This document shows positions 38,034 to 59,873 of a stretch of DNA of 64,000 bases, piece after piece. Each line of letters begins with the position of its first letter. Position 1 is the first letter of the stretch. This stretch comes from Membranipora membranacea (taxonomy: Eukaryota > Bryozoa > Gymnolaemata > Cheilostomatida > Membraniporidae): positions 14,451,001 through 14,515,000 of the forward strand of contig OU612067.1 of NCBI GenBank assembly GCA_914767715.1. The letters run 5' to 3'. The notes under the pieces are model-generated. The model searched no databases, was not told where the DNA came from, and worked only from the letters and a program-made list of their open reading frames with translations. The translations under genes were made by a program, and so were the position numbers.

Positions 38034-39330
38034 ATTCAGTGATTGAGTTGACAATGTCGGGAGAAGAAGATGAGACCTCTCCTGAGATACAAGAGACATC
38101 TCAAAGTGAGGCTTGTAGAAGTGCTTTATGAATACAGGAATATTTAAAAGTTTGCAGATTGGATAAATGTGTGGCCTTGTGACCTCTGCTCTGACTTGAA
38201 AATTGCCAAAGAAAGCATCATGATACCTCAAGAAAAAATTCTGTTTTATATGGTGCATATCTGAAGTCCGATTGTATGGATTATAAAGATGGACTGGTCT
38301 AAAAGTATTGCTCAAAATTTGGTCTTTAATGGACTCAGTTTTAGGTATTATCATGTTGAGTCCTTTCTGGGATAATTGAATATTAATTTAAACAACTAGG
38401 AAAAAGAATATCAATTTGTGTCTAATTGAACCACTCCAAGTATCATTCATTCCAAGTCAGTAGATGTCTTCCCTTCCCCAAAACAATTGCCTCATATCAG
38501 ACTATTTGTTTGGTGACGGTAACATCCTCAAATCAAATACACAGCGTTATCTTGCTTTCAAAAGAGCAGCGCAGCAATGGTGAACCATTGCCGCTCATTA
38601 TATCAAACAACTTGTCTGGCAGTCCAAATAGAGGGCACAGATATTTATCATAGAATGACTACCGTACAAAGATATTCATTTGTGACTTTTTCACACGACA
38701 ACCCTCATTTTATCTCTCATCAACGACCCTTTTTGAATTGCAGCTTGCATATATTTGCGTTGTTAGCAGATGTGATAGAATATTTCTTCAGACTGGCAGA
38801 AATGCTCGGACAGTTGTCACTCTAGGCTCCGTAGCATCTCCCTTGCTGTTTAGACGGTTTTTTTCTATTTTATTTTTTCTTCAAATAGTTTTATTTATAT
38901 TCATCACGACTTTTATAATCAGTATGGAATTAATAATGATTTATTCTTTTCCGCGCCCATGATAGATAATCGGTGAATATTTCGAATTTCATTTGTATAT
39001 GACAAAGTATATACAAAATAGATTGGTCGATTCTCTCTTGTTCTAGGTATCTACCATTTACATTCTGTTTTCTCATATGCGTTTATGTTATATTTCAGAT
39101 TACAGTGTCTGGTTTAGACATAGCTTGGAACCTGAGATCATCGGCTTCCCAGTAATTTATGACAACCTGCTTAACCGGTTATCCTTGTCCGATCTGACAG
39201 CTGCTACAAGTGGCCTCCATATCTCACACATGATCATCAGAGGTGATATCCCACCTACTCTAAGTCAGTTAGCTCCTGATCTGAAATGTCTCAGACTGAC
39301 TGAGATATCGCATGCAGATCAGCTTGGGAG
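38034..39330 (+). CDS. 5' exons of the LRR-Roc-COR-caspase gene
   Basis: Exon 38034-38105 follows TTTTTTACAG and holds the first ATG (38054), reading MSGEEDETSPEIQETSQ, an acidic, disordered start; donor GTGAGG. Exon 39099-39330 reads YSVWFRHSLEPEIIGFPVIY then DNLLNRLSLSDLTAATSGLH and ends at ADQLG plus two bases. The start was chosen because the ATG follows in-frame stops in the exon and the exon phase fits. The second exon has a leucine pattern (FPVIYDNLLNRLSLSDLTAA) faintly like an F-box; not assigned. Confidence 0.75.
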
Positions 39331-42300
39331 GTGAGTGCGCTGTTGGTTCACATTGAATTTTAAAGTCTTGTTGGCAATCTGGGTAGAATGCATGGGTTTC
39401 CAAGTAAAATGACTGGACTAAGAACTATTTTCCTACAGTATGGTGTCTTGAGGATGAAGACAAGCGCTTGTCAATGATATCAATTAAGATGGTGACTAGC
39501 AGCTTCTCTTTGAAAAATTAAAAAAAAAAAGTATATAACAGTGTCTGGTCTCTGACAGCACTAGAAGTGTTAAGATTACAAGGTAATGAGAAACTGCAGG
39601 CATAACCTGATGTTATATAGTCATGATGGAGGTTGTGGATTGTCAATCTTTGGTACAATACCCCTATTTGACCAATGATGGGCCTGTTGAACCACTGCTC
39701 AAAGTAAAACAAACTACAAACTTGATCAAAAACAAAATAGGAAAGATGAGTTATGGTATGTATGTATGTATGTATGAGGTATGGGTAAAGGGCTCTGTGT
39801 GAGGACAACAGTGGGGAGGGGGAACCTGTGACCAGGTCAAGAGAGCTCTCTCTGCATCAAAGATCAGATGACAAACAAACTTTTGAAGACTTTTTAGCCT
39901 GGGTAAATCCGTTTGACTAGAGAAGATAACTTGAAAATAAATTGAAATATTGTTGAGTTCAGAATAAAATAAGAGTTGTCCTGTTTTATTCTATGGTCTA
40001 TTGGTCATATGTTCGATGACTACTTATTCCAATGCTGAATTTAAATACATTCTACTTCACTCCAGCCAGGCTCTACTAGCTAAGCCTAAGTAAGTAGTAG
40101 TTTTACAAACAGTATGGCATACCAAATGGACAAGAAATCACATAGAATAAGAAGAAGAATCTATAAGTCGAACCGAGGACTACTCCTTAGTCAAACTAAC
40201 AAAGATTTTTGGGATGAGTGGGTCTTTATTGTAAATCCGAATTTATTAGAATGATAGACAGGTCTGTGTTGTGACCTTGGAAATGTCATGGCGGATTTAC
40301 CCAGGAGTGTTACTTGCCATATGTAAAAAAGTGGTATCCTCATCAAACAGCAGAGAATATTCTCATTTATGGCAGTTAACTTTAGGTATCTTGATGTCAG
40401 TAATACGATTTTGAAGTGTGAAATCAAATTGTTATCTGTTAGAAGCAGTTATATCATCATCCTACCTCATCTTGTCTATATTTATATTTCAGTATTTGTT
40501 CACTGACAGTACTAGAGGAGTTACATGTGTACGGTAACAAGAAGATACAAGCATTACCTGATGATATAGGTATGATAAGTTCGCTGACAAAGTTATATGC
40601 ATGGGGCTGTGATCTGTCTCATATACCTGACAGGTGAGAAAATTTTCTGTCATCAGATTTGGGTGAGTGACGACATTATTTATAATTATTAACTATGTAG
40701 GAAGTGGAATCTTCGTTGCACAGCAAAGTTTATTTCACCTTTGAAAGATTTATCTTTAGGTCCCTCTATGACTGAAGTACATTTTTTAATTGATCTGTCT
40801 CATATACCTGACAGGTGAGTCATTTCTCTGTTATCAGATTTTGGTGAGTGATGACGGTAATACAATCATTAATAATATTTTTAAGTGTGATGTCGAATGT
40901 TTTCTATGATAATCAGTTATCAGCGAAATCTATTTACCCGTTGATAATTTACCTATAGGTATCTTGATGTCAGTGATATAATTTATAACTACCCTATAGG
41001 AGTTTAATTTAGCTAGAGTTTAATTTCGCTATCTGGACCTGGTACTAAATTTCACTCATACTAAATTTCGCTAGTAGGCTTACTAGTGAAAATTAAAAAT
41101 TTTCCATCTAATTGCAAGGCAGACACTTAGACCACTAAACCACGCTAGCTTGTATGCTTAGGTAAGGTGTATTCCTGTATAATTCTACATCGTTTATGAA
41201 ACTATGGTGAGTGAGTTTAATTTAAGATACACTAAATTTCGCAAGCTAGGCAACAACGGGAAAAGCGAATCCTAAATGCCGCGAAAACAAAACTCCTATA
41301 GGGTATGCCAATTAATTGTTCTCTGTCAGAAGCAGCTATATCCTCATCTTTACCTCACATTGTCTATATTTTTTTTTCAGCATTTGTTCACTGTCAGCAC
41401 TAGAGGTTATATCTGTAAGAGGTAATAAGAAGCTCAAATCATTACCTGATGATATAGGTATAATGAGTTCACTGAAGGAGATAGATGCATCATGGTGTGA
41501 TCTGTCTTATATACCTGACAGGTGAGTTATTTCTCTGTTATCAGATTTTGGTGAGTGATGACGGTGATACAATCATTAATAATATTTTTAAGTGTGATAT
41601 CGAATTGTTTTCTATGATAATCAGTCATCAGCGAAATCTATTTACCCGTTGATAATTTACCTATAGGTATGTTGATGTCAGTAATACAATTGTTAACTAT
41701 GACACCTAATTGTTATCTGTCAGAAGCGGCTACATCCTCATCTTTACCTCACATTGTCTATATTTTTATTTCAGCATTTATTCACTGTCAACACTAGAGG
41801 TAATATCTGTAAGAGGTAATAAGAAGCTCAAATCATTACTTGATGATATAGGTATAATGAGTTCACTGAAGGAGATAGATGCATCATGGTGTGATCTGTC
41901 TCATATACCTGACAGGTGAGTTAATTTTCCGTTACCAGATTTTTGTGAGTGATTATGAGCCAGCCGCCTTATAGATAATCTCAAACTGTGCAGGAAGTGG
42001 TATATTTATTTCACAGCAAAGCATATTTTCTGTTAATAATTTTATGACAGATATACAATTACTATTTGTGATATCAAAATGTTATCTGGGAGTAGCAGTT
42101 ATCTCCTCTTCTTACCTCACCTTGTCTATATTTATATTTCAGTGTCTGTTCACTGACAGCACTAGAGGAGTTACATATAGACGGTAACGAGAGGCTACAA
42201 ACATTACCTGATGATATAGGTATGATAAGTTCGCTGACAAAGTTATATGCATGGGGCTGTGATCTGTCTCATATACCTGACAGGTGAGTCATTTTTCCAT

Positions 42301-45300
42301 TATCCCGTGATAGCAGTAATACGATTTTACATTGTGGTATCAAATTGTTATCTGTGAGAAGCAGTTATATCCACATCTTACCTCACCTTGTCTATATTTA
42401 TATTTCAGTATTTGTTCACTGACAGCACTAGAGGAGTTATATATAGGCGGTAACCAGAAGCTACAAACATTACCTGACGATATAGGTATGATGAGTGCAC
42501 TGACAAAGTTATATGCATGGGACTGTGATCTGTCTCATATGCCTGACAGGTGAGTCATTTCTCTGTTATAAGATTTTGGTGAGTGATGACAGTGATACAA
42601 TCATTAATAATATTTCTAAGTGTGATATCAAATAGTTTTCTATGATAATCAGTCATCAGCAAAATCTATTCTCTCTTTGATAATTTACCTATAGGTATGT
42701 TGATGTCAGTAATACAATTGTTAACTATGACATCTAATTGTTATCTGTCAGAAGCGGCTATATCCTCATCTTTACCTCACATTGTGTATATTTATATTAT
42801 TTCAGAATTTGTTCACTGTCAGCACTAGAGGTTATATCTGTAAATCGTAATAAGAAGCTCAAATCATTACCTGATGATATAGGTATGATGAGTTCACTGA
42901 AGGAGATAGATACATCATGGTGTGATCTGTCTCATATACCTGACAGGTGAGTCATTTCTCTGTTATCAGATTTTGGTGAGTGATGACGGTGATACAATCA
43001 ATCATCAATAATATTTTTAAGTGTGATATCGAATTATTTTCTATGATAATCAGTTACCAGCAAAATCCATTTACCCGTTGATAATTTACCTATAGGTATC
43101 TTGATGTCAGTGATATATTTTATAGCTATGCCATTTAATTGTTATCTGTCAGAGGCGGCTATATCCTCATCTTACCTCACATTATGTATATTTATATTTC
43201 AGTATTTGTTCACTGTCAGCACTAGAGGAGTTAGATATAAACGGTAACAAGAAGCTACGCACATTACCTGATGATATAGGTATGATGAGATCACTGAAGG
43301 TGATAAAGGCATTGGACTGTGATCTGTCTCATATACCTGACAGGTGAGTCATTTCTCTGTTATCAAATTTTGGTGAGTGATGACGGTGATACAAACAATC
43401 ATCAATAATATTTTTAAGTGTGATATCGAATTGTTTTCTATGATAATCAGTTATCGGCGAAATCTATTTACCCGTTGATAATTTACCTATAGGTATCTTG
43501 ATGTTAGTGATATAATTTATAACTATGCCATTTAATTGTTATCTGTCAGAAGCAGCTATATCCTCATCTTACCTCACATTGTGTATATTTATATTTCAGT
43601 ATCTGTTCACTGTCAGCACTAGAGGAGTTAGATATAGGCAGTAACAAGAAGCTACAAACATTACCTGATGATATAGGTATGATGAGTACACTGACAAAGT
43701 TATATGCATGGGGCTGTGATCTGTCTCATATACCTGCCAGGTGAGTCATTTTTCCGTTATCCCGTGATAGCAGTAATACGATTTTTCATTGTGGTATCTG
43801 TGAGAAGCAGTTATATCCACATCTTACCTCACCTTGTCTATATTTATATTTCAGCATTTGTTCACTGACAGCACTAGAGGAGTTATATATAGGCGGTAAC
43901 CAGAAGATACAAACGTTACCTGATGATATAGGTATGATGAGTACAATGACAAAGTTATATGCATGGGGCTGTGATCTGTCTCATATACCTGCCAGGTGAG
44001 TCATTTCTGTGTTATCAGGTTTGGGTGAGTGATGACGGTGATACAATCAATCATTAAAAATATTTTTTAGTGTGATATCAAATAGTTTTCTATGATAATC
44101 AGTTATCAGCGAAATCTATTTTCTCTTTGATAATTTACCTATAGGTATGTTGATGTCAGTAATACAATTGTTAACCATGACATCTAATTGTTATCTGTCA
44201 GAAGCGGCCATATCCTCATCTTTACCTCACATTGTGTATATTTATATTTCAGCATTTGTTCACTGTCAGCACTAGAGGTTATATCTGTACGTCGTAATAA
44301 GAAGCTCAAATCATTACCTGATGATATAGGTATGATGAGTTCACTGAAGGAGATAGATACATCATGGTGTGACCTGTCTCATATACCTGACAGGTGAGTC
44401 ATTTCTCTGTTATCAGATTTTGGTGAGTGATGACGGTGATACAATCAATCATCAATAATATTTTTAAGTGTGATATCGAATTGTTTTCTATGATAATCAG
44501 TTATCAGTGAAATCTATTGACCCGTTGATAAATTACCTATAGGTATCTTGATGTCAGTGATATAATTTATAACTATGCCATTCAATTGTTATCTGTCAGA
44601 AGCGGCTATATCCTCATCTTACCTCACATTGTGTATATTTATATTTCAGTATTTGTTCACTGACAGCACTCGAGGAGTTACATATAAACGATAACAAGAA
44701 GATACAAACATTACCTGATGATATAGGTATGATGAGTTCACTGAAGGTGATAAAGGCGTGGCACTGTGATCTGTCTCATATACCTGACAGGTGAGTCATT
44801 TCTCTGTTATCAGATTTTGGTGAGTGATGACGGTGATAAAATCAATCATTTATAATATTTCCAAGTGTGATATCCAATTTTTTGCTATAATAATCAGTTG
44901 TCAGCAAAATCCATTTACCCTTTGATAATTTACCTATAGGTATCTTGATGTCAGTGATATAATTTATAACTATGCCATTTAATTGTTATATGTCGGAAGC
45001 AGCTATATCCTCATCTAACCTCACATTGTGTATATTTATATTTCAGTATTTGTTCACTGACAGCACTAGAGCTGTTACATATACACGGTAACAAGAAGCT
45101 ACAAACATTACCCGATGATATAGGTATGATGAGTTCACTGAAGGTGATAACGGCGTTTGACTGTGATCTGTCTCATATACCTGACAGGTGAGTAATTTCT
45201 CTGTTATCAGATTTTGGTGAGTGATGACGGTGATACAATCAATCATTAATAATATTTTAAAGTTTGATGTCGAATTGTTTTTTATGAGAATCAGTTATCA

Positions 45301-48300
45301 GCGAAATCTATTTTCTCTTTGATAAAATACCTCTGTGACTGTGATCTGTCTCATATACCTGACAGGTGAGTCATTTCTCTGTTATCAGGTTTTGGTCAGT
45401 GATGACGGTGATACAATCATAAATAATATTTTTAAGTGTGATATCGATGTGTTTTCTATGATAATCAGTTATGAGCGAAATCTATTTACCCATTGATAAT
45501 TTACCTATAGGTATCTTAATGTCACTGATATATATTTATAACTATGCCATTTATTTGTTATCTGTCAGAAGCAGCTATATCCTCATCTTACCTCACATTG
45601 TGTATATTTATATTTCAGTATTTGTTCACTGATAGCACTAGAGGTGCTAGATGTAAAAGGTAATACAAGGCTACAAAATTTACCCGATGATATAGGTATG
45701 ATGAGTTCACTGAAGGTGATAACGGCGTTTGACTGTGATCTGTCTCATATACCTGACAGGTGAGTCATTTCTCTGTTATCAGATTTTGGTGAGTGATGAC
45801 GGTGATACAATCAATCATTAATAATATTTTTAAGTTTGATGTCGAATTGTTTTTTATGAGAATCAGTTATCAGCGAAATCTATTTTCTCTTTGATAAAAT
45901 ACCTCTGTGACTGTGATCTGTCTCATATACCTGACATGTGAGTCATTTCTCTGTTATCAGGTTTTGGTCAGTGATGACGGTGATACAATCATAAATAATA
46001 TTTTTAAGTGTGATATCGATGTGTTTTCTATGATAATCAGTTATGAGCGAAATCTATTTACCCATTGATAATTTACCTATAGATATCTTGATGTCTGTGA
46101 TATAATTCATAGCTATGCCATTTAATTGTTATCTGTCAGAAGCGGCTATATCCTCATCTAACCTCACATTGTGTATATTTATATTTCAGTATTTGTTCAC
46201 TGACAGCACTAGAGCGGTTACATATACGCGGTAACAAGAAGTTACAAACATTACCCGATGATATAGGTATGATGAGTTCACTGAAGGTGATAACGGCGTT
46301 TGACTGTGATCTGTCTCATATACCTGACAGGTGAGTCATTTCTCTGTTATCAGATTTTGGTGAGTGATGACGGTGATACAATCAATCATTAATAATATTT
46401 TAAAGTTTGATGTCGAATTGTTTTTTATGAGAATCAGTTATCAGCGAAATCTATTTTCTCTTTGATAAAATACCTCTGTGACTGTGATCTGTCTCATATA
46501 CCTGACAGGTGAGTCATTTCTCTGTTATCAGGTTTTGGTCAGTGATGACGGTGATACAATCATAAATAATATTTTTAAGTGTGATATCGATGTGTTTTCT
46601 ATGATAATCAGTTATGAGCGAAATCTATTTACCCATTGATAATTTACCTATAGATATCTTGATGTCTGTGATATAATTCATAGCTATGCCATTTAATTGT
46701 TATCTGTCAGAAGCGGCTATATCCTCATCTAACCTCACATTGTGTATATTTATATTTCAGTATTTGTTCACTGACAGCACTAGAGCGGTTACATATACGC
46801 GGTAACAAGAAGTTACAAACATTACCCGATGATATAGGTATGATGAGTTCACTGAAGGTGATAACGGCGTTTGACTGTGATCTGTCTCATATACCTGACA
46901 GGTGAGTCATTTCTCTGTTATCAGATTTTGGTGAGTGATGACGGTGATACAATCAATCATTAATAATATTTTAAAGTTTGATGTCGAATTGTTTTTTATG
47001 AGAATCAGTTATCAGCGAAATCTATTTTCTCTTTGATAAAATACCTCTGTGACTGTGATCTGTCTCATATACCTGACAGGTGAGTCATTTCTCTGTTATA
47101 AGATTTCGGTGAGTGATGACAGTGATACAATCATTAATAATATTTTAAAGTGTGATATGGAAATGTTTTCTATGATAACCAGTTATCAGCGAAATCTATT
47201 TACCCGTTGATAATTTACCTATAGGTATCTTGATGTCAGGGATATAATTTATAGCTATGCCATTTAATTGTTATCTGTCAGAAGCGGCTATATCCTCATC
47301 TTACCTCACATTGTGTATATTTATATTTCAGTATTTGTTCACTGTCAGCACTAGAGGAGTTATCTGTACAGGGTAACCAGAAGCTACAAACATTACCTGA
47401 TGATATAGGTATGATGAGTTCACTGAAGGTGATAATTGCATCTGACTGTGATCTGTCTCCTATACCTGACAGGTGAGTCATTTCTCTGTTTTATCAGATT
47501 TTGGTGAGTGATGACGGTGATACAATCAATCATTATTAATATTTTTAAGTTTGATGTCGATTTGTTTTCTATGATAATCAGTTATCAGCGAAATCTATTT
47601 TCTCTTTGATAATATACCTGACAGGTGAGTCTTTTCTCTGTTATCAGAGTTTGGTCAGTGATGACGGTGATACGATCATTAATAATATTTTTAAGTGTGA
47701 TATCGAATTGTTTTCTATGATAATCAGTTATCAGCGAACTTTATTTACCCGTTGATGATTTACCTATAGGTATCTTGATGTCAGTGATATAATTTATAAC
47801 TATGCCATTTAATTGTTATCTGTCACAAGCGGCTATATCCTCATCTTACCTCACATTGTGTATATTTATATTTCAGTATTTGTTCACTGACAGCACTAGA
47901 GGAGTTACATATAAACGGGAACAAGAAGCTAGAAACATTACCTGATGATATTGGTATGATGAGTGCACTGAAGGTGATAATGGCATGGGACTGTGATCTG
48001 TCTCATATACCTGGCAGGTGAGTCATTTCTCTGTTATCAGATTTTGGTGAGTGATGACGGTGATACAATCATTAATAATATTTTTAAGTGTGATATCGAA
48101 TTGTTTTCTATGATAATCAGTTATCAGCGAAATCCATTTACCCGTTGATAATTTACCTATAGGTATCTTGATATCAGTGATATAATTTATAACTATGTCA
48201 TTTAATTGCTATCTGCCAGAAGCGGCTATATCCTCATCTTACCTCACATTGTGTATATTTATATTTCAGTATTTGTTCACTGACAGCACTAGAGGAGTTA

Positions 48301-51300
48301 CATATAAACGGTAACAAGAAGCTACAAACATTACCTGATGATATAGGTATGATGAGATCATTGACAAAGTTACATGCATGGGACTGTGATCTGTCTCATA
48401 TACCTGACAGGTGAGTGATTTCTCTGTTATCAAATTTCGGTGAGTGATGATGGTCATACAATCATTAATAATATTTTTAAGTGTGATTTCGAATTTTCTC
48501 TATGATAATCAGTTACCAGCGAAATTTATTTACCCGTTGATAATTTACCTCTAGGTATCTTGATGTTAGTGATATAATTTATAACTATGCCATTTAATCG
48601 TTATCTGTCAGAAGCGGCTATATCCTCATCTTACCTCACCTTGTCTATATTTATATTTCAGTATTTGTTTACTGAAAGCTCTAGAGAAGTTACATATAAG
48701 CGGTAACAAGAAACTACAAACATTACCTGAGCATATAGGTATGATGAGATCACTGACAAAGTTATATGCATCGAACTGTGATCTATCTCATATACCTGAC
48801 AGGTGAGTGATTTCTCTGTTATCAAATTTTGGTGAGTGATGACGGTGATACAATCATTAATAATATTTTTAAGTGTGATTTCAAATTGTTTTCTATGATA
48901 ATCAGCTATCAGCGAAATCTATTTTATCATTGATAATTTACCTCTAGGTATCTTGATGTTAGTGATATAATTCATAACTATCCCATTTAATTGTTATCTG
49001 TCAGAAGCGGCTATATCCTCATCTTACCTCACCTTGTCTATATTTATATTTCAGTATTTGTTCACTGACAGCACTAGAGAAGTTATCTGTACGAGGTAAC
49101 AAGAGGCTACGTACATTACCTGATGATATAGGTATGATAAGTTCACTGACAAAGTTACATGCATGGGACTGTGATCTGTCTCATATACCTGACAGGTGAG
49201 TTATTGTTCCGTAATCCTAGAATTGTTTTCTATGATAATCAGTTATCAGCGAAATCTATTTTCTCATTGATAATTTACCTAGGCATCTTGATGTAAGTGA
49301 TATAATTTATAACTATGCCATTTAATTGTTATCTGTCAGAAGCGGCTATATCCTCATCTTCCCTCACATTGTGTATATTTATATTTCAGTATTTGTTCAC
49401 TGAAAACTCTAGAGGAGTTATCTGTACGGGGTAACAAGAGGCTACGTACATTACCTGATGATATAGGTATGATGAGATCACTGACAAATTTACATGCATG
49501 GGACTGTGATCTGTCTCATATACCTGACAGGTGAGTCATTTCTCTGTTATCAAGTTTTGGTGAGTGATGACGGTGATAAAATCATCAATAATATATTTAA
49601 GTGTGATATCTAATTTTTTCCTATGACAATCAGTTATCAGCAAAATCTATTTTCTCATTGACAATTTACCTCTAGGTATCTTGATGTTAGTGATATAATT
49701 TATAACTATGCCATTTAATTGTTATCTGTCAGAAGCGGCTATATCCTCATCTTACCTCACATTGTGTATATTTATTTTTCAGTATTTGTTCACTGACAGC
49801 ACTAGAAGAGTTATCTGTGCGAGGTAACGAGAAGCTACAAACATTACCTGAGCATATAGGTATGATGAGATCACTGACAAAGCTACATGCAAACAACTGT
49901 GATCTGTCTCAGATACCTGACAGGTGAGTTATTGTTCCGTAATCCTAGAATTGTTTTCTATGATAATCAGTTATCAGCAAAATCTATTTTCTCTTTGATA
50001 ATTTACCTCTAGGTATCTTGATGTTAGTGATATAATTTTTAACTATGCCATCTAATTGTTATCTGTCAGAAGCGGCTATATCCTCATCTGACCTCACATT
50101 GTGTATATTTATTTATATTTCAGTATTTGTTCACTGCCAGCACTAAAGGAGTTACATATAAACGGTAACAAGAGGCTACAAACATTACCTGATGATATAG
50201 GTATGATAAGTTCACTGACAAAGTTATATGCATGGGACTGTGATCTGTCTCATATACCTGACAGGTGAGTCATTTCTCTGTTATCAAATTTTGGTGAGTG
50301 ATGACGGTGATACAATCATTAATAATATTTTTAAGTGTGATTTCGAATTATTTTCTATGATAATCAGTAATCAGCGAAATCTTTTTACCCGTTGATGATT
50401 CACCTATAGGTATCTTGATGTCAGTGATATAATATACAACTATGCCATTTAATTGTTATCTGTCAGAAGCGGCTATATCCTCATCTTACCTCACCTTGTC
50501 TATATTTATGTTTCAGTATTTGTTCACTGACAGCACTAGTGGAGTTATATATAGGCGGTAACCAGAAGCTTCGTACATTACCTGATGATATAGGTATGAT
50601 GATAAGTTCACTGACAAAGTTATATGCATGGGACTGTGATCTGTCTCATATACCTGACAGGTGAGTCATTTCTCTGTTATCAAATTTTGGTGAGTGATGA
50701 CGGTGATACAATCATTAATAACATTTTTAAGTGTAATATCGTATCGTTTTCTATGATAATCAGTTATTAGCGAAATCTATTTTATCATTGATAATTTACC
50801 TCTAGGCATCTTGATATTAGTGATATAATTTTTAACTATGCCATTTAATTGTTATCTGTCAGAAGCGGCTATATCATCATCTTACCTCACATTGTGTATA
50901 TTTATATTTCAGTATTTGTTCACTGAAAGCTCTAGAGGAGTTACATATAAACGGTAACAAGAAGCTACAAACATTACCTGAGCATATAGGTATGATGAGA
51001 TCACTGACAAAGTTACATGCATGGGACTGTGATTTGTCTCATATACCTGGCAGGTGAGTCCTTTCTCTGTTATCAAATTCTGGTGAGTGATGACGGTGAT
51101 ACAATCATTAATAATATTTTGAAGTGTGATTTCGAATTGTTTTCTATGATAATCAGTCATCGGCGAAAGCTATTTACCCGTTGATAATTTACCTATAGGT
51201 ATCTTGATGTCAGTGATATATTTTATAGTTATGCCATTTAATTGTTATCTGTCAGAAGCGGCTATATCCTCATCTTACCTCACATTGTCTATATTTATAT

Positions 51301-54300
51301 TTCAGTATTTGTTCACTGACAGCACTAGAGGAGTTAGATATAAACGGTAACAAGAAGCTACAAACATTACCTGATGATATAGGTATGATAAGTTCACTGA
51401 AGGTGATAATGGCATTGGACTGTGATCTGTCTCATATACCTGACAGGTGAGTCATTTCTTTGTTATCAAATTTTGGTGAGTGATGACGGTGATACAATCA
51501 TTAATAATATTTTTAAGTGTGATTTCGAATTGTTTTCTATGATAATCAGTTATCAGCAAAATATATTTTCTCTTTGATAATTTACCTCTTGGTTTCTTGA
51601 TATTATTGATATAATTTTTAACTATGCCATCTAATTGTTATCTGTCAGAAGCGGCTATATCCTCATCTTACCTCACATTGTCTATATTTATATTTCAGTA
51701 TTTGTTCACTGACAGCACTAGAGGAGTTACATATAAACGGTAACAAGAAGCTACAAACATTACCTGAGCATATAGGTATGATGAGATCACTGACAAAGTT
51801 ACATGCATGGGACTGTGATCTGTCACATATACCCGACAGGTGAGTCATTTCTCTGTTATCAAGTTCTGGTGAGTGATGACGGTGATACAATCATTAATAA
51901 TATTTTGAAGTGTGATTTCGAATTGTTATCTATGATAATGAGTCATCGGCGAAATCTATTTACCCGTTGATAATTTACCTATAGGTATCTTGATGTCAGT
52001 GATATATTTTATAGTTATGCCATTTAATTGTTATCTGTCAGAAGCGGCTATATCCTCATCTTACCTCACATTGTCTATATTTATATTTCAGTATTTGTTC
52101 ACTGACAGCACTAGAGGAGTTACATATAAACGGTAACAAGAAGCTACAAACATTACCTGAGCATATAGGTATGATGAGATCACTGACAAAGTTATATGCA
52201 TGGGACTGTGATCTGTCTCATATACCTGACAGGTGAGTTATTTCTCTGTTATTTAAATTTTGGTGAGTGATGACGGTGATACAATCAATAATAATATTTT
52301 TAAGTGTGATTTCGAATTGTTTTTTATGATAATCAGTTATCAGCGAAATCTATTTACCCGTTGATAATTTACCTATAGGTATCTTGATGTCAGTGATATA
52401 ATTTTTAACTATGCCATTTAATTGTTATCTGTCAGAAGCGGCTATATCCTCATCTTACCTCACCTTGTCTATATTTATATTTCAGTATTTGTTCACTGAC
52501 AGCGCTAGAGCAGTTATCTGTACGAGGTAACAAGAAGCTACAAACATTACCTGATGATATAGGTATGATCAGGTCACTGAAAATATTGGAAGTCTCGTAC
52601 TGTCAGCTGTCTCAATTACCAAACAGGTGTGTTATTCTTATCTGTTTGGTTCTGCTTTTTCTTGGGGCGATGATATGTTTTGTTTATCTGATATGATGTC
52701 CAGAGTTATTTATCAGGCGTCACCTTGTCATAGCAGGATGACACATTTCGGAGTTTATTGTGTCATTGGTGCATATCTAATTAAGAAGATAATGTCCCGA
52801 TTGAGCAAAACAAGTAAGAATACACCCTAGAATAAAGAAACTGTAGCATAGTGCATTCTCAACCGCTAAAATCATTATGATTCTATCAGCAACTGTTCAA
52901 AAGTAAAACTGTATTGCATCTTCAGCATTTATGATGGTTGTGATATTTCATCATGTATTTATTATCACGTAATTAAAAGTTAGTTCCTCGTGATCCTTGT
53001 GTGTTGAGTTGAAAGCTTTCAATTGATACTGATACTGATATTGAAATTTCTTAAAGGCTTTATGACAGCTGTAATTTTTCTTATATCATTGTAAAGCTCA
53101 CAATCAGACTACGGGAACCAGAGGGACCTTATGAGCGCTATTTCTGCCATGAATTAAAGCAGTATGAAAGTTCAAGAATTTATGGGGTAAATAAGGGGTA
53201 AATCCAGGCTTTAGCTGCTTGAGCAGAGCAGAGGACGTATGTGTATGAGGCATGCGCAAGAAATAAACAGAGCTAACATCCTAAAATTTAATCAATATGA
53301 GTGGATTCTGTACTCCATCCAGGCCATCCAAGGTCAGAGGGGAGGTATAACTTTAGTGTATTGGTTTATATATACAACATGGTAATCATCAAATTCTAAC
53401 AAACAGGGTCTATGTCAACTTAAAATAAATAAACTTAAATCTGTTTTCAACAAGCAGAAGTTCTCAAAAACTTGTGCAACTCTGATCTCCAGTGCTTTTA
53501 TAACCTGCTATTAAATAAGGTCAGCAAATCAACCGCATTCTTCGACTGTTGCTTTCATGTCTTAATCACGGGAACACCATAACAAATCCGCTTGGCATGC
53601 TTTTGGTAAATATTTTAAAATATCAAGCCTTCTCTGTGACATGTTATTTGAGAAAATCAGCGGTCATATACAAATTTTGCCAGGATCTGATCTATATGTT
53701 ACACAAGGTGTACAGCTTTCCTACTGGATCTTGAATCTTTAAGCTATCGCTTCATCACCATATCTCTATTTATATTACAGTATCTGCTCACTGTCAGCAC
53801 TAGAGGCATTAGCTGTAGAATGTAATAAGAAACTCAAGACATTACCTGATGATATTGGAATGCTCACATCTCTTAAGAAGATATATGCCAGTTCCTGCAG
53901 TTTGACTCATTTACCTGGCAGGTGAGTGACAGGAGGGTGATGAAAATGACGGTGATTAAGATGATGGTGAAATCATGGTCTTTTGATGTCGTGGGATGGT
54001 GATTGGTGTTGCATTGGTTATGCAATGGTGATGATGCTGGTTATGTGATGCTAATGTGATCTGTTATGGTGGAGACGGCGATGTCATGTTGATCGCGTTG
54101 GAATATGATGCTGATGATGAGGATATACCGATGTTACAACGCTGTGGTAATCACATCAATCACATAATATCATTACAGTTATTGCCTCATTTTCCCTAAC
54201 AATATACTTGTGTACTTCACAGTGTCGTCACATTGACAGCTCTAGAGGAGCTAGCTGTACAAAGTAACAAAAAGCTAAAAGCATTACCAAAGAATATTGG

Positions 54301-57300
54301 CATGATGAGATCGCTGAAGAAATTAGATTTTAGCTCTTGTAGTATGACTCAAATACCTGCCAGGTTAGTAACATTACAAATCATAGCTCATTTTTAATTC
54401 CGGTCATATGTCAGGCAGTGGTGTACAGCAGTGTACAAATGGCATGTATGATTGCAGGCATGTGAATGAGTGATTTTTGTATATAAGCTAAATAAAAGCT
54501 TCGCCTTGCTTCCGTGTACAAACTACACGGCATCTGGCATTGATAACTTATAATTGTTTTGCCAGCAAGTAAAGTCAGCCTTGACAGTGTGCTTATGTTT
54601 TATCATGCATCAAATTTAAAACTTAACTCAATCATTACAGTATATGCTCACTGGCAGCTCTAGAAGAGTTATCAGCATACGGAAATAAGAAGTTAAAAGT
54701 ATTATCTGATGACTTAGGCAAGATGAAATCACTGAGAAAGTTGGATATGGGTTCTTGCAATTTAACTCATCTACATACCAGGTAAATACTTTCACCTTGT
54801 ATTTTTACATTTACTCTAAAGCTGCGTTTACATTGTCAACTAATCTGCCTATTTGAACAACACCGACATTCAACACCGATAAATCTTCTAATGTAAATAT
54901 TGTGTCGTGCAGACTAATCGGAGTTTAATGAAATTGTTGCTCTGTGATCATGTCACAGAATGAAGGACACAGGGTCCGATTCCATTGATACATAGCCAAT
55001 TAAAACACAGATATTACTAGCTGTAGCTTTAGTACAGGGGTAATATTGTCGCAAAATGGTAGCTGATTGGTCAATATAGTTGTTAGGGTAGAGTTATTGG
55101 ACCGACAAATCTAGTGTAAAAGCAAAATCGTTATAACCTATATTACACCGACATTTACCGCCGACAGTATTGTGGTATATCGGTGTTGTTCAATTATGCA
55201 GATTAGTTGTATTAGTACACGGAAGAAAGGCGAAGCTTTTATTTAGCTTATATACAACAATCACTCATTCACATGCCTGCAATCATACATGCCATTTGTA
55301 CACTGCTGTACACCACTGCCTGACATACGACCGGAATTAAAAGTGAGCTATGATTTGTAATGTTACTAACCTGGCAGGTATTTGAGTCATACTACAGTTC
55401 TAGCTTTAATTCAAATTAATTCTTCTGACACATTGGCTAAATTATCAACATTTTTCCCAAAGTCAGCCAGAGATTGATATCAATCAATTATGAAAACACA
55501 GCCTGAAAACCATAGGCATTATTATCTGAATGGGGCTACTTTAAACTCATTGACAAATAATGTGTGCATGGGGGACCAAAAGAATTACTGATGATAACAA
55601 GAGTATGTTGACAAAAGCTTGTGATTTGTATGAAGTTTAGAAAGTAGTGTGAAGCTAGATGGGGAACCTAGATCTATTATTCCATTTGCCTATATGATCA
55701 AAGAGTCTCTGCTTTACTAGCTCCAGCATATAGTCAGTGGCGCTCCAACTGGAACAAAACATATGTGGACGCTTGACAAGGCTCCCTGTTTTGTGTTGGT
55801 TCTCATGTAATTTTAACTGTATGCTGATTTCTCATCTCTTGCAGCATTGGAGAACTGACTAATCTTATCACCCTGGATGTCGAGCACAATCGCAAGTTAA
55901 CCACCATACCTGAGAGTCTTTTCCAACTTGGAGCATTAGAAGAAGTCAAATGTAAAGGCTGTCATGCGTTAACATTTCCACCTCTGGCTGTCTGCAAACT
56001 AGGAGTTGAAGCTGTGAGAAAATATTTCTCCGCCCTTCACGTGGATGAACCAAGTAATCAACTGCTAATCCCAGTCACTGTAATTGGACAGAGTAGGGCT
56101 GGTAAAACAAGTCTTGTCCGTAGTGTACAACAAAATGAGAGAGTGTTGACAAAACGAGATTCTGATGAAAGCACGTTGGACGCGGCCACCAAAGTTTTCC
56201 AAGTATCTGAAGCTGAGGTGGACAAGGCCACAAAACTTGTCTTTACTGACTTTGGAGGACAAACAATATACCAGTTTTCTTACCAGCTAACCTTTAAGAC
56301 TCAGTGTGTCCCACTGCTGGTGATAGACATTGCTGAGTTTGACAGGTTAGTTGGAAAGAATGGGATGGAGATGGCCTGCAAAGAGCTGTGTATACAATGG
56401 CTGTCACAGCTCTACATTTCATCTCCTCAACTCAAACGGCCAGTAGTAGTCCTCACTCACCGTGACAAAGTTAGTGATGAGTGTTTTGAACGCAGAAGAG
56501 AGCAACTGATAGAGGTCACTGAAGTGTTACGTCAGCACATCATCGAAGCTGAAAGAAGTGTGTCTCCAACATCAAATCCTGTTTTCACAATGACAAGCTT
56601 TACTGATCCCTCAGAAACTTTTATAGGAAAAAGTAACATTCTTGTGTTATCAGACACATCAGATCAGTTTGACATTGATGCTGTGAAAAACGCCATTGCC
56701 CTCACTGGTTCAGAACTAGTAACAAAAATACCAGGCAACTGGTACAAAATATTCATCAGAATCACTCAGCAAAGTGATAAACTGTTCATCACCCTGTCAG
56801 AGGTAGATAAGGAATTTCCCGATGATAAAGACCATGTAGCCCTCGAGTATCTCCATGAGTCAGGACGTATAATGTGGTTTGGGAAAATAGAAAAACTCTC
56901 AAGTTACATTTTCCACCGAGCGGAAGTTCTGACAGGCCTCATAGAGGTGCTATATAGTCACACGATAGATGATACCTGGGATCAACGGCTACATCACTTT
57001 TCTCCGTTCACCTGTGATGGAAGAACCTTCACCAAAAGTAAATACGCTGACATGATTGACAATTTCAATGAGACTGGAGTAATGGAGGGTCCTTTGCTTG
57101 TTAATCTGCTAGAGAAAGAAACAATACTCCCAACTGACATCTCATTGGAAATCTTGAAGTTGTTTCATCTTATTCATTCATGCGGACCATCTGATGAGCT
57201 AAGAAATGAGAAGTACATCATACCCTACTTCGCAAAGCAGAGGATAGAGGCACCAGAAGTGTATGATCACCTGATCCCGCTAAGGGTAGATCTGTTCCTA

Positions 57301-59873
57301 CGCGGTCTCCCTCTACCGAACTACGTATACTCCCTCATCACAGCAGCTTACCTAGACATGAACTCAGATCCCTACAACATTCCTCAGGCTGGTATGAATG
57401 GTGCAACAGTAACAAAGGGGAACAAAAGAGTGAAATACCTCCTACATCAAGCTAAGGAGCAGCGTGTTACATTAATCGCTCTCACCCCTCTGAGAAGAAT
57501 ATGTGAAGCTTGGCAAGATCAACTAAGTTCACTGCGACAGATCATCTCAGAACTGAAATCTGTGTGGAAAGGCGTTCGGTATGAGACTGGCTTTGTTTGC
57601 TCCCATTGCTTACTTGCAAATAAATCAACCCCAACTACAGTTGCTGATCCTGATTGGTTCAATCTAGAATATGCAGCCAGTGATGTAAATATCTGCTATA
57701 CGGGAACCGAAATAACTGTTTGCGGGAAAGACCTCAGTGCTATAGAGAGTGAATCTGTTCCGTACCCACTGATGAATCCATGTAAGTAAAACAACACACA
57801 ACAAAATGGTGTAACAAAAAATGGGAATCTACCAGCAGTGGAAAATACCAAACATTCTATGAGTATTGTTACAGTTTCCTCCCCATATACATTGTTTACC
57901 AAAGTAGGCAGTTGGTATCAAGAGGTGAGATAATATTTTTTCATGTTTTCGCAGGTACTGAAATATCTGACTCTGGATACGATGTTCTCCAAGATTACAT
58001 CTCAGCCCTCAGAATTTTGTCAGGCAAGAACTTTATCACCATATCACGTTGTTCTCCAAAAAATTAATATCAGAACTACCTTTTGCTTCTAGCTTGGGGA
58101 GGACTCTTCGAATGCAACTAAAAACCCTAACTATGAAGCACATAATTTTGTAAGAAATCTCTGATAGAATAGACAGTTTTCTGAGCTCTGATTTAGGCCT
58201 CAATTCTGAGTTGTCCTCCTCTCCAGTTTGGTACTTTTAACCCACGCCGCATAGGAAAAACGTGCTGAAAAGAGGGTTATCTTGAAAACCGCTTATAAAA
58301 GGATAAAAATTGTTTTTGATTCTGAATCTGCAACATTGAAAACTCATATGGACATAGTTTGGGAAATAGTTTCAGTAATTGGATAGTCAATTACAGCATT
58401 TTCTGCCTGTTTTGCGGACAATTTGGCAGAATTTTTCATGAATTTCGTCACATAAATTAAGATTTATCAACATTCAAGCCTCCAATGATTTGGAAACCCT
58501 GTCTCACAGGATTTTCAGTGGAGCAGACTCAGAATCAAAAATCATTTTCATCCTATCATAAGCGGTTTTCAAGATAGCCTTCTTTTAACAGGTTTTTCCT
58601 ATGCTGCGTGGGTTAAAAGTACCAAACTGGAGAGAGGACAACTCCGAATTGAGGCATAAATAAGAGTTCAGAAAACTGTCTATTAGAATGTAGAGACCTA
58701 ATAAGAACGACATTGTAAATCTGTTTCACTGAATCTCACAATTCAATCACAGCATTTTGTGGGAGCTGGGGAAAATCGTTTGACAGTTACACATTATTGT
58801 AAAGCTTGCAACTGAGACATATCTTTCCTAATGTGTTCACAGATAAGTCACAGACGCTAAAGGAGCTGATAGAGAAACATCAACTAGAGGCGAATGACAT
58901 CAAGCTGCTGTTCAATCAAAGTGATCAATACATCATACCTTATCAGCAATCTCATGTGAAGAGATGTGGATTAGTGCTGTTCAACTCTGAGAAAAGGGAC
59001 GGGGCCAGAGAAGAAGCTGATACAATGCAACAAAGTCTTGCCAAATCTGGATTTTCGTCTAAGTCCATGGAATGGAAGATGGACCATGACATGTTTGGTA
59101 AGCTCAAATCTGAGATCAGCAGGTTTACTGATGGATTGTCACTGCTCGTCGTCTCCATCATGTCTCATGGTCAAGCAGGAATACTGACCGGGAATCACGA
59201 CTGCAAAATACCTATTACTGATATTCTGCAGGAGCTGAGAGCTATTCTCCCTGAACATGTGCCTTTGGTAAGTTGACTGGACTTGTTCCCGTAGTCTTAA
59301 TGACAAAGTTTACCTACATTTTTTTGTTCAAGATTCTAAATTGATGACACAGACAAAGATTAAATATGGAGCACAAAAAAAGAAAGAATTCCATGTAGCA
59401 AAATCTAAGAATTGAAATTTGGTCGCAGGAGTCTTAAATATTCGGTCGATTTTGCTTTTCAGATTCTTCTGATTCAGGCCTGTCAACCATATCGTCCAGC
59501 TGCTAAGCGTAAACAATATGACGCTGGTGCCGTAGATCCTTCCAAGAAACCTTACATCAAGCTAGAAAGGCCACATACCCTGCTACTGATGTCATCAGTT
59601 GTTGGAGGGATGGCTGTCAGAGGAGCGTTCACATCTGCCATTGCTAGACAGTTTGCTAATGCTGATGGTAAAACAAATATCAATGATATGGTCACCAATG
59701 CAATAATCGACATGAAGAAGAACGAAACAGACGGGCACAATCAGTCTCCAGAGTCACGAAATACTCTTCAGAAAAGTCTAGTGCTACCACCAGGTGTGGT
59801 AAGCACAGATCTGCCTCAAAGTCAAGAGAGACTTTCTAAAGAGAGCCTCATGAGGAAGCTTGGTGTCCTGTAG
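38054..59873 (+). CDS. LRR - Roc - COR - caspase-like fusion protein, about 2,546 aa, 38 exons
   Basis: Exons: 38034-38105 (ATG 38054), 39099-39330, 32 LRR exons between 40493 and 54781, 55845-57781, 57955-58023, 58843-59267, 59463-59873. Every junction keeps phase, giving one 7,641-nt reading frame. Order: ~95 aa N-terminus of unknown fold; ~64 LRRs (residues ~96-1600); a last LRR pair; Roc GTPase (P-loop GQSRAGKTSL ~1683, DFGGQ, THRD); COR; linker; caspase-like domain (~2270-2546) with SHG and QACQP. Roc-COR modules act as dimeric GTP switches (LRRK, MFHAS1, DAPK1 families); caspases cleave after Asp. I infer a cytosolic sensor joined to a protease. No signal peptide and no membrane helix are seen. 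AATAAA at 59880-59885. I do not know a named gene with this architecture. Splice models are by eye, so individual LRR exons may be skipped or alternative in life. Confidence 0.92.
39542..39630 (+). pseudogene. Dead LRR exon relic with in-frame stops
   Basis: After AACAG the text reads SVWSLTALEVLRLQGNEKLQ, the first half of an LRR cassette, then TAA instead of the usual TTA codon, and later TAG and TGA. It matches the cassette start of the array (SICSLTALEEL) and keeps the acceptor. If spliced in it would end translation, so it must be skipped. Confidence 0.8.
40493..54781 (+). CDS. Array of 32 tandem LRR exons, each two leucine-rich repeats
   Basis: Exon starts-ends: 40493-40633, 41381-41521, 41775-41915, 42143-42283, 42409-42549, 42806-42946, 43203-43343, 43600-43740, 43855-43995, 44253-44393, 44650-44790, 45047-45187, 45619-45759, 46190-46330, 46761-46901, 47332-47472, 47877-48017, 48270-48410, 48662-48802, 49055-49195, 49390-49530, 49783-49923, 50124-50264, 50517-50660, 50913-51053, 51306-51446, 51699-51839, 52092-52232, 52486-52626, 53781-53921, 54223-54363, 54641-54781. 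All are 141 nt (the 24th is 144), phase 2 at both ends. Consensus: SICSLTALEEL.I.GN.KLQ, TLPDDIGMM.SL.., then C.LSHIPD. This is the LxxLxLxxNxxLxxLP pattern of LRRs, whose concave side binds ligands. The first 29 introns are themselves similar; the last three exons are more diverged and have unrelated introns. Confidence 0.93.
45047..47090 (+). repeat. Recent tandem amplification, unit about 571 bp (4 copies)
   Basis: LRR exons starting at 45047, 45619, 46190 and 46761 are spaced 572, 571 and 571 bp. The units contain one full exon plus a 3' exon relic near 45330, 45903, 46476 and 47046. The 46190 and 46761 exons look identical, as does most intron sequence between them. Confidence 0.9.
45331..45366 (+). 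pseudogene. Truncated LRR exon relic keeping a donor site
   Basis: CTGTGACTGTGATCTGTCTC..ATACCTGACAG followed by GTGAGTCA is the last ~36 nt of an LRR cassette with donor but no acceptor. Equivalent relics are at 40788-40815, 45903-45938 (donor changed to ATGTGAGT), 46474-46508, 47046-47080 and, shorter, 47612-47624. They are not expected to be spliced as exons. Confidence 0.85.
52627..53780 (+). other. Long intron between LRR exons 29 and 30
   Basis: This 1.15 kb intron breaks the homogenised array: the sequence on its left belongs to the array, the exons on its right are older and more diverged. No exon or repeat was recognised inside. Confidence 0.6.
54328..55412. repeat. Large inverted duplication (arms ~190 bp) enclosing LRR exon 32
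   Basis: Left arm ~54328-54519 (end of LRR exon 31, its GTTAGT donor and the following intron) is repeated in inverse orientation at ~55215-55412, with only a handful of differences. The right copy thus carries an antisense piece of exon 31 (GGCAGGTATTTGAGTCATAC). Exon 32 and ~690 bp of unrelated sequence lie between. Confidence 0.9.
55845..57781 (+). CDS. Roc-COR GTPase exon (with last LRRs)
   Basis: One 1,937-nt exon. It opens with two less regular LRRs (SIGELTNLITLDVEHNRKL, then IPESLFQLGALEEV). The Roc domain follows: P-loop GQSRAGKTSL (56092-56121), switch II DFGGQTIYQF, and THRDK in place of the usual NKxD base-recognition motif, as in several Roc proteins. COR starts near 56690 (IPGNWYKIFIRITQ, then LEYLHESGRIMWFG) and continues to near the end of the exon. 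Catalytic Lys and Thr of the P-loop are intact, so GTP binding is expected. The COR part would mediate dimerisation. No kinase domain follows, unlike LRRK proteins. Confidence 0.93.
58024..58842 (+). other. GC-AG intron containing a fold-back element
   Basis: The donor is CAG|GCAAGA, a rare GC type; choosing it is supported because the phase (1) then matches the next exon, whereas reading on meets TAA at about 58064-58066. The intron holds an inverted repeat with arms about 58168-58320 and 58535-58683 (GACAGTTTTCTGAGCTCTGA; AAGCGGTTTTCAAGATAGCC). Confidence 0.7.
58168..58683. mobile_element. Fold-back/MITE in the intron before the caspase exons
   Basis: Arms of about 150 bp pair at roughly 85-90% by eye: TTCTGAGCTCTGATTTAGGC, CCAGTTTGGTACTTTTAACC and GAAAACCGCTTATAAAAGGA at the left each have inverse counterparts at the right. 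No ORF. Confidence 0.8.
58843..59873 (+). CDS. Caspase-like protease domain (p20 + p10-like), C-terminus of the fusion
   Basis: Exons 58843-59267 and 59463-59873. p20 part: CGLVLFNSEKRDGAREEADT (first beta-strand and the R-x-G-x(4)-D helix start), LLVVSIMSHGQAGILTG with the catalytic His, then VPLILLIQACQPYRP with the catalytic Cys (~2417). QACQ recalls initiator caspases such as caspase-8 (QACQG), but Gly is replaced by Pro. An Asp-containing linker (QYDAGAVDPSKK) is followed by a p10-like part: LLLMSSVVGGMAVRGAF, an amphipathic helix (SAIARQFA), and PESRNTLQKSLVLPP, like the 'S.L.K.l.FP' end of p10. The canonical SWR of the S1/S4 pocket is not evident. About 280 aa, normal for a caspase catalytic domain. 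The dyad is present, but specificity may be altered. Confidence 0.85.

Follow-up and report, generated by a model that had tools for sequence, protein, structure and literature searches.

A predicted bryozoan gene that joins a long LRR array, a Roc-COR module and a caspase in a single chain

A locus in DNA of the bryozoan Membranipora membranacea probably encodes one intracellular receptor-protease, composed of an LRR sensor, a Roc-COR switch and a caspase effector and working by the mechanism proposed below. Within the 64,000-nt stretch that was analyzed (the window), assembly of exons from splice sites yields one open frame on the + strand from position 38054 to 59873, comprising 38 exons, 7,641 nt and 2,546 amino acids, in which the sole stop is the terminal one and internal stops number zero. 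An earlier note on this DNA had proposed a single frame-consistent gene model at these coordinates, which the assembly confirms. The introns are of the GT-AG type in 36 of 37 cases, the remaining one (after 58023) being GC-AG, and the exon order is a short N-terminus (two exons), 32 LRR exons, a Roc-COR exon, a small exon and two caspase exons. The sensor, switch and protease that the note had placed in a single chain are thus well supported at the level of sequence, by the frame, by recurring splice borders and by the domains. Prokaryotic contamination was rejected on account of the phase-consistent introns that split the gene.

The N-terminus is the least certain portion of the model. Exon 1 (38054..38105, + strand; MSGEEDETSPEIQETSQ) was placed on the basis of its open frame and GT donor, with a tentative start codon, and an upstream exon is possible because the ATG at 38054 sits ~20 nt 3′ of a site that by eye is acceptor-like. 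Exon 2 (39099..39330, + strand) carries in the gene model an N-terminal stretch running into the LRRs, and joint translation of exons 1 and 2 with the first two LRR exons gives an LRR_14 match above cutoff at residues 79-178. At the 3′ end of the gene, the stop codon ends at 59873 and an AATAAA sequence lies shortly downstream of it (59880..59885, + strand).

The ~64 LRRs counted in the earlier note correspond to two repeats in each of the 32 intact LRR exons, and the start of the Roc-COR exon contributes, counted by eye, ~2 further LRRs. All 32 exons are in phase 2 on both sides, 31 of them being 141 nt long and one 144 nt, so that any could be skipped or duplicated with the frame preserved. 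The first 29, which include the 144-nt exon, are similar to one another and extend over 40493..52626 (+ strand), followed on the same strand by three diverged ones, exons 30 (53781..53921), 31 (54223..54363) and 32 (54641..54781). A broken LRR exon relic that contains a stop (39546..39628, + strand) was left out of the model. The nearest copy is a non-neighboring one for 19 of 31 LRR exons and two adjacent units of 571 nt are 99.6% identical, which together indicate that the array is turning over. Repeat units of 393, 397 and 571 nt are near-identical, and the length of the array could for that reason be partly an artefact of assembly, although this is improbable given that only one identical pair was found among the equal-length exons of the first 29, whose mean pairwise nucleotide identity is 0.847. 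Intronic relics of LRR exon 3′ ends, which indicate exon birth and death within the array, occur at 40791-40814, 45327-45365, 45899-45936, 46470-46508 and 47041-47079. A 185-nt inverted repeat at 54338-55396, with 97% complementarity, is a recent inverted duplication; the last part of LRR exon 31 falls within its left arm, and exon 32 is enclosed by the repeat.

Variation between the LRR exons falls mostly on the predicted ligand face. This was examined by pairwise pN/pS comparison of the first 29 LRR exons (406 non-independent pairs), taking the ten solvent-facing positions of LxxLxLxxN as the concave set. At concave positions pN was 0.365 and pS 0.296, compared with 0.090 and 0.120 at the other positions; in 100,000 random draws of ten positions the concave mean was never reached, and all seven of the positions with the greatest variation belong to the concave set. 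Over all 46 codons of all 32 LRR exons pN/pS was 0.82. The ratio at concave positions is only ~1.2 because pS is also raised at these codons, which would be unexpected under selection alone and may have its source in recombination between repeats. The variation could accordingly reflect neutral turnover of a recombining array in place of selection for new ligands, a reading to which the raised concave pS and low ratio lend themselves, as do the near-identity of the neighboring 571-nt units and the presence of broken exon copies inside introns. We consider it unlikely, however, since amino-acid variation is concentrated at the concave positions and since, in the 13 pairs whose flanking introns are most similar (0.047 divergence on average), pN at concave positions was 0.201 (pS 0.143), as against 0.055 elsewhere in the exon. 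In the more diverged pair classes concave pN is steady at 0.35-0.42 while intron divergence climbs to 0.10-0.26.

Downstream of the array, a single exon (55845..57781, + strand) encodes the last LRRs, the Roc GTPase, COR and a Cys-His motif, as judged from Pfam matches and 33 close relatives. The intact P-loop reported in the earlier note is present as GQSRAGKTS (56086..56112, + strand), with A85, G86, K87, T88 and S89 at least 90% conserved in alignment A1, and in the window Roc (PF08477) scored 31.1 bits against a cutoff of 27. The domain search that the note had proposed therefore recovered Roc, and likewise the caspase (PF00656, see below), but COR in the window alone fell below the Pfam cutoffs (COR-A 13.5 against 35.3 bits; COR-B 13.0 against 27). 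COR-A was nevertheless matched in the family. In an alignment of the window with 28 of the 33 close relatives, the short P0015, P0019, P0025, P0026 and P0030 being omitted, Roc was matched at E ≤ 0.1 in 28 of 29 members and COR-A in 27 of 29 (best 6.6e-7), whereas COR-B was matched in 4 of 29. On these family-member matches COR directly follows Roc, as is characteristic of the Roco family. A profile of the family aligned with the solved Roco structures 3dpu, 6hlu, 8r4b and 4wnr in the PDB, which are prokaryotic, at 3e-17 to 7e-16 over the Roc part only.

The Roc-COR exon served as the protein query that yielded the relatives; scoring covered the 7,999 candidates with the most shared words and gave 105 matches at E ≤ 1e-3. 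Thirty-three of these are close (29-68% identity, most of them spanning most of the query) and look like lone exons called as ORFs on metagenome contigs. The other 72 are more distant, with query coverage of 18-58%, and their named sources are prokaryotes or mammals, the latter represented by MFHAS1 (E 2.6e-10). At the end of COR lies a C-x-H-C ... C ... PC motif (57598..57781, + strand), a possible metal site, that is complete in 27 of the 33 close relatives and in none of the 72 other matches; the six close relatives without the full motif appear truncated or out of register, and P0027 has CSHC only. This family-specific motif is possibly a zinc site. Membership of the NLRs (STAND-type NTPases) was rejected, as the NTPase of the window matches Roc and neither NACHT nor NB-ARC gave a match in the window up to E 1; NACHT was weakly matched in 2 of 29 family members (best E 0.023). 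The receptor may be NLR-like in its working, though not an NLR.

The caspase is split between two exons on the + strand. The first (58843..59267) encodes the large-subunit part and the second (59463..59873) the catalytic Cys, the linker, the small-subunit part and the TAG stop; PF00656 was matched in 6 of 6 sequences of alignment A5 for the former, window included, and in 11 of 12 of alignment A4 for the latter (E ≤ 0.1), the second exon of the window alone scoring 20.5 bits, slightly below the cutoff of 21.4. Taken as separate ORFs, the two cover complementary parts of the profile (15-106 and 120-232), and when spliced they give a single match over 15-232 of 233 positions (48.4 bits, E 1.3e-12), so that the spliced translation contains a complete caspase domain (peptidase C14). 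Both of the motifs by which the earlier note had recognized a caspase fold, SHG and QAC, are present, and the catalytic His and Cys expected of peptidase C14 are conserved. The His codon (59166..59168, + strand) aligns with caspase SHG and, like the longer SIMSHG, is unchanged in 6 of 6 sequences, and the Cys codon of QACQ (59481..59483, + strand) aligns with caspase-8 IQACQ, which is found in 7 of 7 sequences spanning the site (window included in each case). An Arg codon at 58995..58997 (+ strand), 56 residues upstream of the Ser of SHG and invariant in 6 of 6 sequences including the window, aligns with the TRNGTD Arg of an ancestral effector caspase (HMMER, E 0.002). A predicted second S1-pocket Arg, that of VRGAFT, is encoded at 59619..59621 (+ strand); RGAFT, Arg included, is invariant in 12 of 12 sequences, the window among them, and we take its Arg, by eye, to be the equivalent of the caspase SWR Arg. 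The intersubunit linker is highly variable in both sequence and length, but an Asp-Ala pair (D20 and A21; 59520..59525, + strand) is kept in 12 of 12 linkers, window included and five of them starting inside the linker. This is the pattern expected of a caspase self-processing site, and the pair is likely, judging from its conservation, to be one.

Relative to caspase-8 and effector caspases, SHG, IQACQ and the TRNGTD Arg align and a C-terminal TLxKxLVxP stretch does so weakly; the difference is that LRR-Roc-COR here replaces the prodomain and no death-fold domain was matched by Pfam beside the caspase in the spliced translation. The domain is diverged from solved caspases, as against PDB profiles the best match of the large part has E 0.002 and the small part has none up to E 10. 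In vertebrates cFLIP is a non-proteolytic caspase scaffold, and such divergence might suggest that the caspase domain described here is likewise a scaffold, but the catalytic His, the QACQ Cys and the two candidate pocket Arg residues show no variation among the family members that extend over them, which makes this role very doubtful. An active protease remains the favored interpretation. In phmmer searches matches to carbamoyl phosphate synthetase (E 0.02-0.05) ranked above those to caspases (best E 0.06-0.1); they were disregarded as weak and without bearing on the profile matches. A predicted structure of caspase exon 1 alone was of low confidence (mean pLDDT 48.5) and was left out of account.

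Whether the Roc-COR and caspase exons belong to one gene depends on the region between them, which contains a small exon (57955..58023, + strand; 69 nt, phase 1-1, GC donor) that leaves the frame intact with or without it. The gene model is a prediction from sequence, the small exon has a GC donor, and the intron ahead of caspase exon 1 (58024-58842) is 819 nt long and houses a foldback repeat at 58168-58684. These features would accommodate two adjoining genes, one for LRR-Roc-COR that stops close to 57.8 kb and another for the caspase, which we nevertheless regard as highly improbable because splice borders recur, there is neither a standard first exon nor a poly(A) signal in between, and two relatives appear to carry both halves on the same contig. 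The Roc-COR exon closes at a phase-1 donor and caspase exon 1 opens at a phase-1 acceptor, with its first in-frame Met (59025) lying downstream of the conserved Arg. Between 57790 and 58830 there is no stop-free ATG exon with a right-phase GTRAG donor, the one donor type scanned, and AATAAA and ATTAAA are both absent from the + strand between 57782 and 58842; an ATTAAA is located at 59359, between the caspase exons. The foldback repeat itself has arms that are 85-92% complementary and has the appearance of a MITE-like insertion in the intron.

Relatives of the two halves bear on the same question. The C-terminal PC of the Roc-COR exon is found in 27 of the 33 close relatives and is followed by E, K, M or R in 26 of these 27 (P0021 ends at PC, and the residue after PC in P0005 was read by eye), which is compatible with read-through of a splice donor at the position and phase seen in the window, the donor being deduced from the residues. 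With the spliced caspase as query, 16 matches were obtained, all of them single exons, five corresponding to exon 1 and eleven to exon 2; the independent lineages are fewer than 16 because P0107 and P0108, and likewise P0115, P0117 and P0118, are nearly identical. Those relatives that reach the exon borders agree with the window, having Asp at the exon 1 acceptor (P0107, P0108, P0121), Val after the last Leu/Met of exon 1 (5 of 5) and Gln preceding the initial Ile of exon 2 (P0109-P0113). Roc-COR relative P0001 and caspase relative P0108 are both from jgi and have a contig size of exactly 8216, and P0006 and P0121, also both from jgi, have a contig size of exactly 5183, so that, by size and source, each pair appears to be on one contig. 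Under an assumed Pareto law, two or more such size matches arose in 0.0003 of simulated draws and one or more in 0.028. A quick unrooted tree places P0001 as sister to the window sequence, with P0006 separated from it by several nodes. Counting against the fusion, only two of the 15 Roc-COR contigs that reach 4.7 kb share their size with a caspase match; the other 13 may carry a different effector, or their caspase exon may lie beyond the contig or have gone undetected. A 946-residue Roc-COR-caspase query, of which the last 307 residues were scored, gave no match at E ≤ 1e-3 among 2,564 candidates (~520-1,655 amino acids), no relatives with DNA context were found in the viral or genome contigs scanned, and PADLOC gave no match.

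A single-chain product of this kind would be expected to work as a receptor-protease of the cell-death or immune type. Initiator caspases are activated by dimerization. In the mechanism proposed here, the LRR array would act as the sensor, its concave face detecting a ligand or damage, and Roc-COR as a GTP-dependent switch and dimerization module whose nucleotide or oligomeric state is altered by sensing. This change would bring two caspase domains together, the paired caspases would undergo self-cleavage at the conserved Asp-Ala of the linker that joins large and small subunits, and the processed, active protease would lead to cell death or inflammatory cleavage. Ligand binding, Asp specificity, self-processing and a role in cell death or immunity are accordingly all putative properties of the protein. 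Roco proteins, as outlined in one article, are thought to alternate between a GTP-bound monomer and a GDP-bound or nucleotide-free dimer (PMC6337361), and nucleotide-driven dimerization of Roc-COR in the bryozoan protein is suggested by analogy with these.

The sequence names no ligand. Caspases are active in developmental cell removal, in self/non-self recognition and in anti-microbial roles, and the protein could therefore serve in developmental cell removal or in recognition between individuals instead of against microbes. This is conceivable, though we lean against it, as brown-algal LRR-Roc-COR genes with variable LRRs have been read, in the account given of them, as candidate immune receptors (PMC11378527), an argument by analogy. 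An immune or cell-death receptor is the reading retained here. More tentatively, and with a better chance of being wrong than right, the gene might represent a form of single-gene modular recognition in an animal, in which interchangeable phase-2 LRR exons (through recombination, possibly alternative splicing) feed a GTPase-gated caspase and bring about death without adaptors.

Cell death and inflammation in animals are usually drawn as a relay from sensor through adaptors to caspase. The earlier note knew of no named protein in which a protease is the C-terminal domain after Roc-COR. This was too strong, because bacterial proteins with LRR, AP-GTPase, COR and a C-terminal caspase are stated to exist; proteins with N-terminal LRRs, an AP-GTPase of the Roc type and COR are there credited with at least 24 types of C-terminal domain, caspase included (PMC8195603, eLife 2021). 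The bryozoan protein shares with these AP-GTPase-COR conflict proteins, as they are described, fast-evolving N-terminal LRRs, a GTPase with COR and a C-terminal effector in one chain, so that it corresponds to the bacterial AP-GTPase effectors in architecture only; by the same description it differs in its exon-split gene, animal-like caspase, 64 repeats and family-specific Cys-His motif. Among animals, the sea-anemone protein NG1 is reported to have LRR, Roc/Ras, low-threshold COR and TIR_2 (PMC5094078), and hence likewise joins LRR-Roc-COR to a domain of effector type in one chain, but the domain described is TIR instead of a caspase. Trichoplax Roco proteins are described with CARD and death domains, a figure legend also listing TIR (PMC4104024), and Aplysia TIR proteins with Roc-COR domains (PMC9334734). 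MFHAS1, LRRK1/2, DAPK1 and the Trichoplax Roco proteins have the Roc-COR core in common with the window, and the accounts seen do not name a caspase for them. For NACHT-LRR receptors of the sponge Dysidea avara, CASc (caspase) and COR appear among the domains named in a figure legend (PMC12909245); by that account they too are of the intracellular LRR type but have a NACHT switch.

The closest parallel to the LRR array is in brown algae, where LRR-ROC-COR genes are reported to have LRR exons of constant length and phase 2 that are repeated and shuffled, and the sites under selection are reported to lie on their concave face (Teng et al. 2024, PMC11378527). Constant-length, repeated phase-2 LRR exons and concave-face variation are common to both; the algal exons, however, are given as 72 nt with one LRR, whereas those of the bryozoan gene are 141 nt with two LRRs, also in phase 2, and the algal proteins are described in that account as plain LRR-ROC-COR, no further domain. 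No animal LRR-Roc-COR-caspase protein was found among the open-license literature matches listed. An animal member would be surprising within a logic known from bacteria, and the combination of LRR-Roc-COR and caspase in an animal was not found described. If the predicted arrangement is true, a Roco receptor that bears its own caspase would be an animal counterpart of the bacterial single-chain conflict proteins, and would allow a test of how much older, bacterial-type wiring animal cell death has retained. Whether receptor diversity in an animal arises through exon repetition, as has been proposed for brown algae, could be tested directly on the LRR exons.

Several other features were detected elsewhere in the window. 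Scattered ORFs on the - strand between 7719 and 30850, with weak sub-cutoff HEAT-repeat matches and one TPR_IPO5 match above cutoff, probably represent an importin-4/5-like gene. An ORF of 555 codons on the + strand (14514-16181) combines an integrase core (rve) with an OTU cysteine protease domain and is a probable retroelement or transposon ORF. Another + strand ORF (17102-17467) has a weak, sub-cutoff F-box match, and a region of low complexity at 22309-22706 yields repetitive ORFs, rich in Gly/Glu or in Pro/Ser, on both strands.
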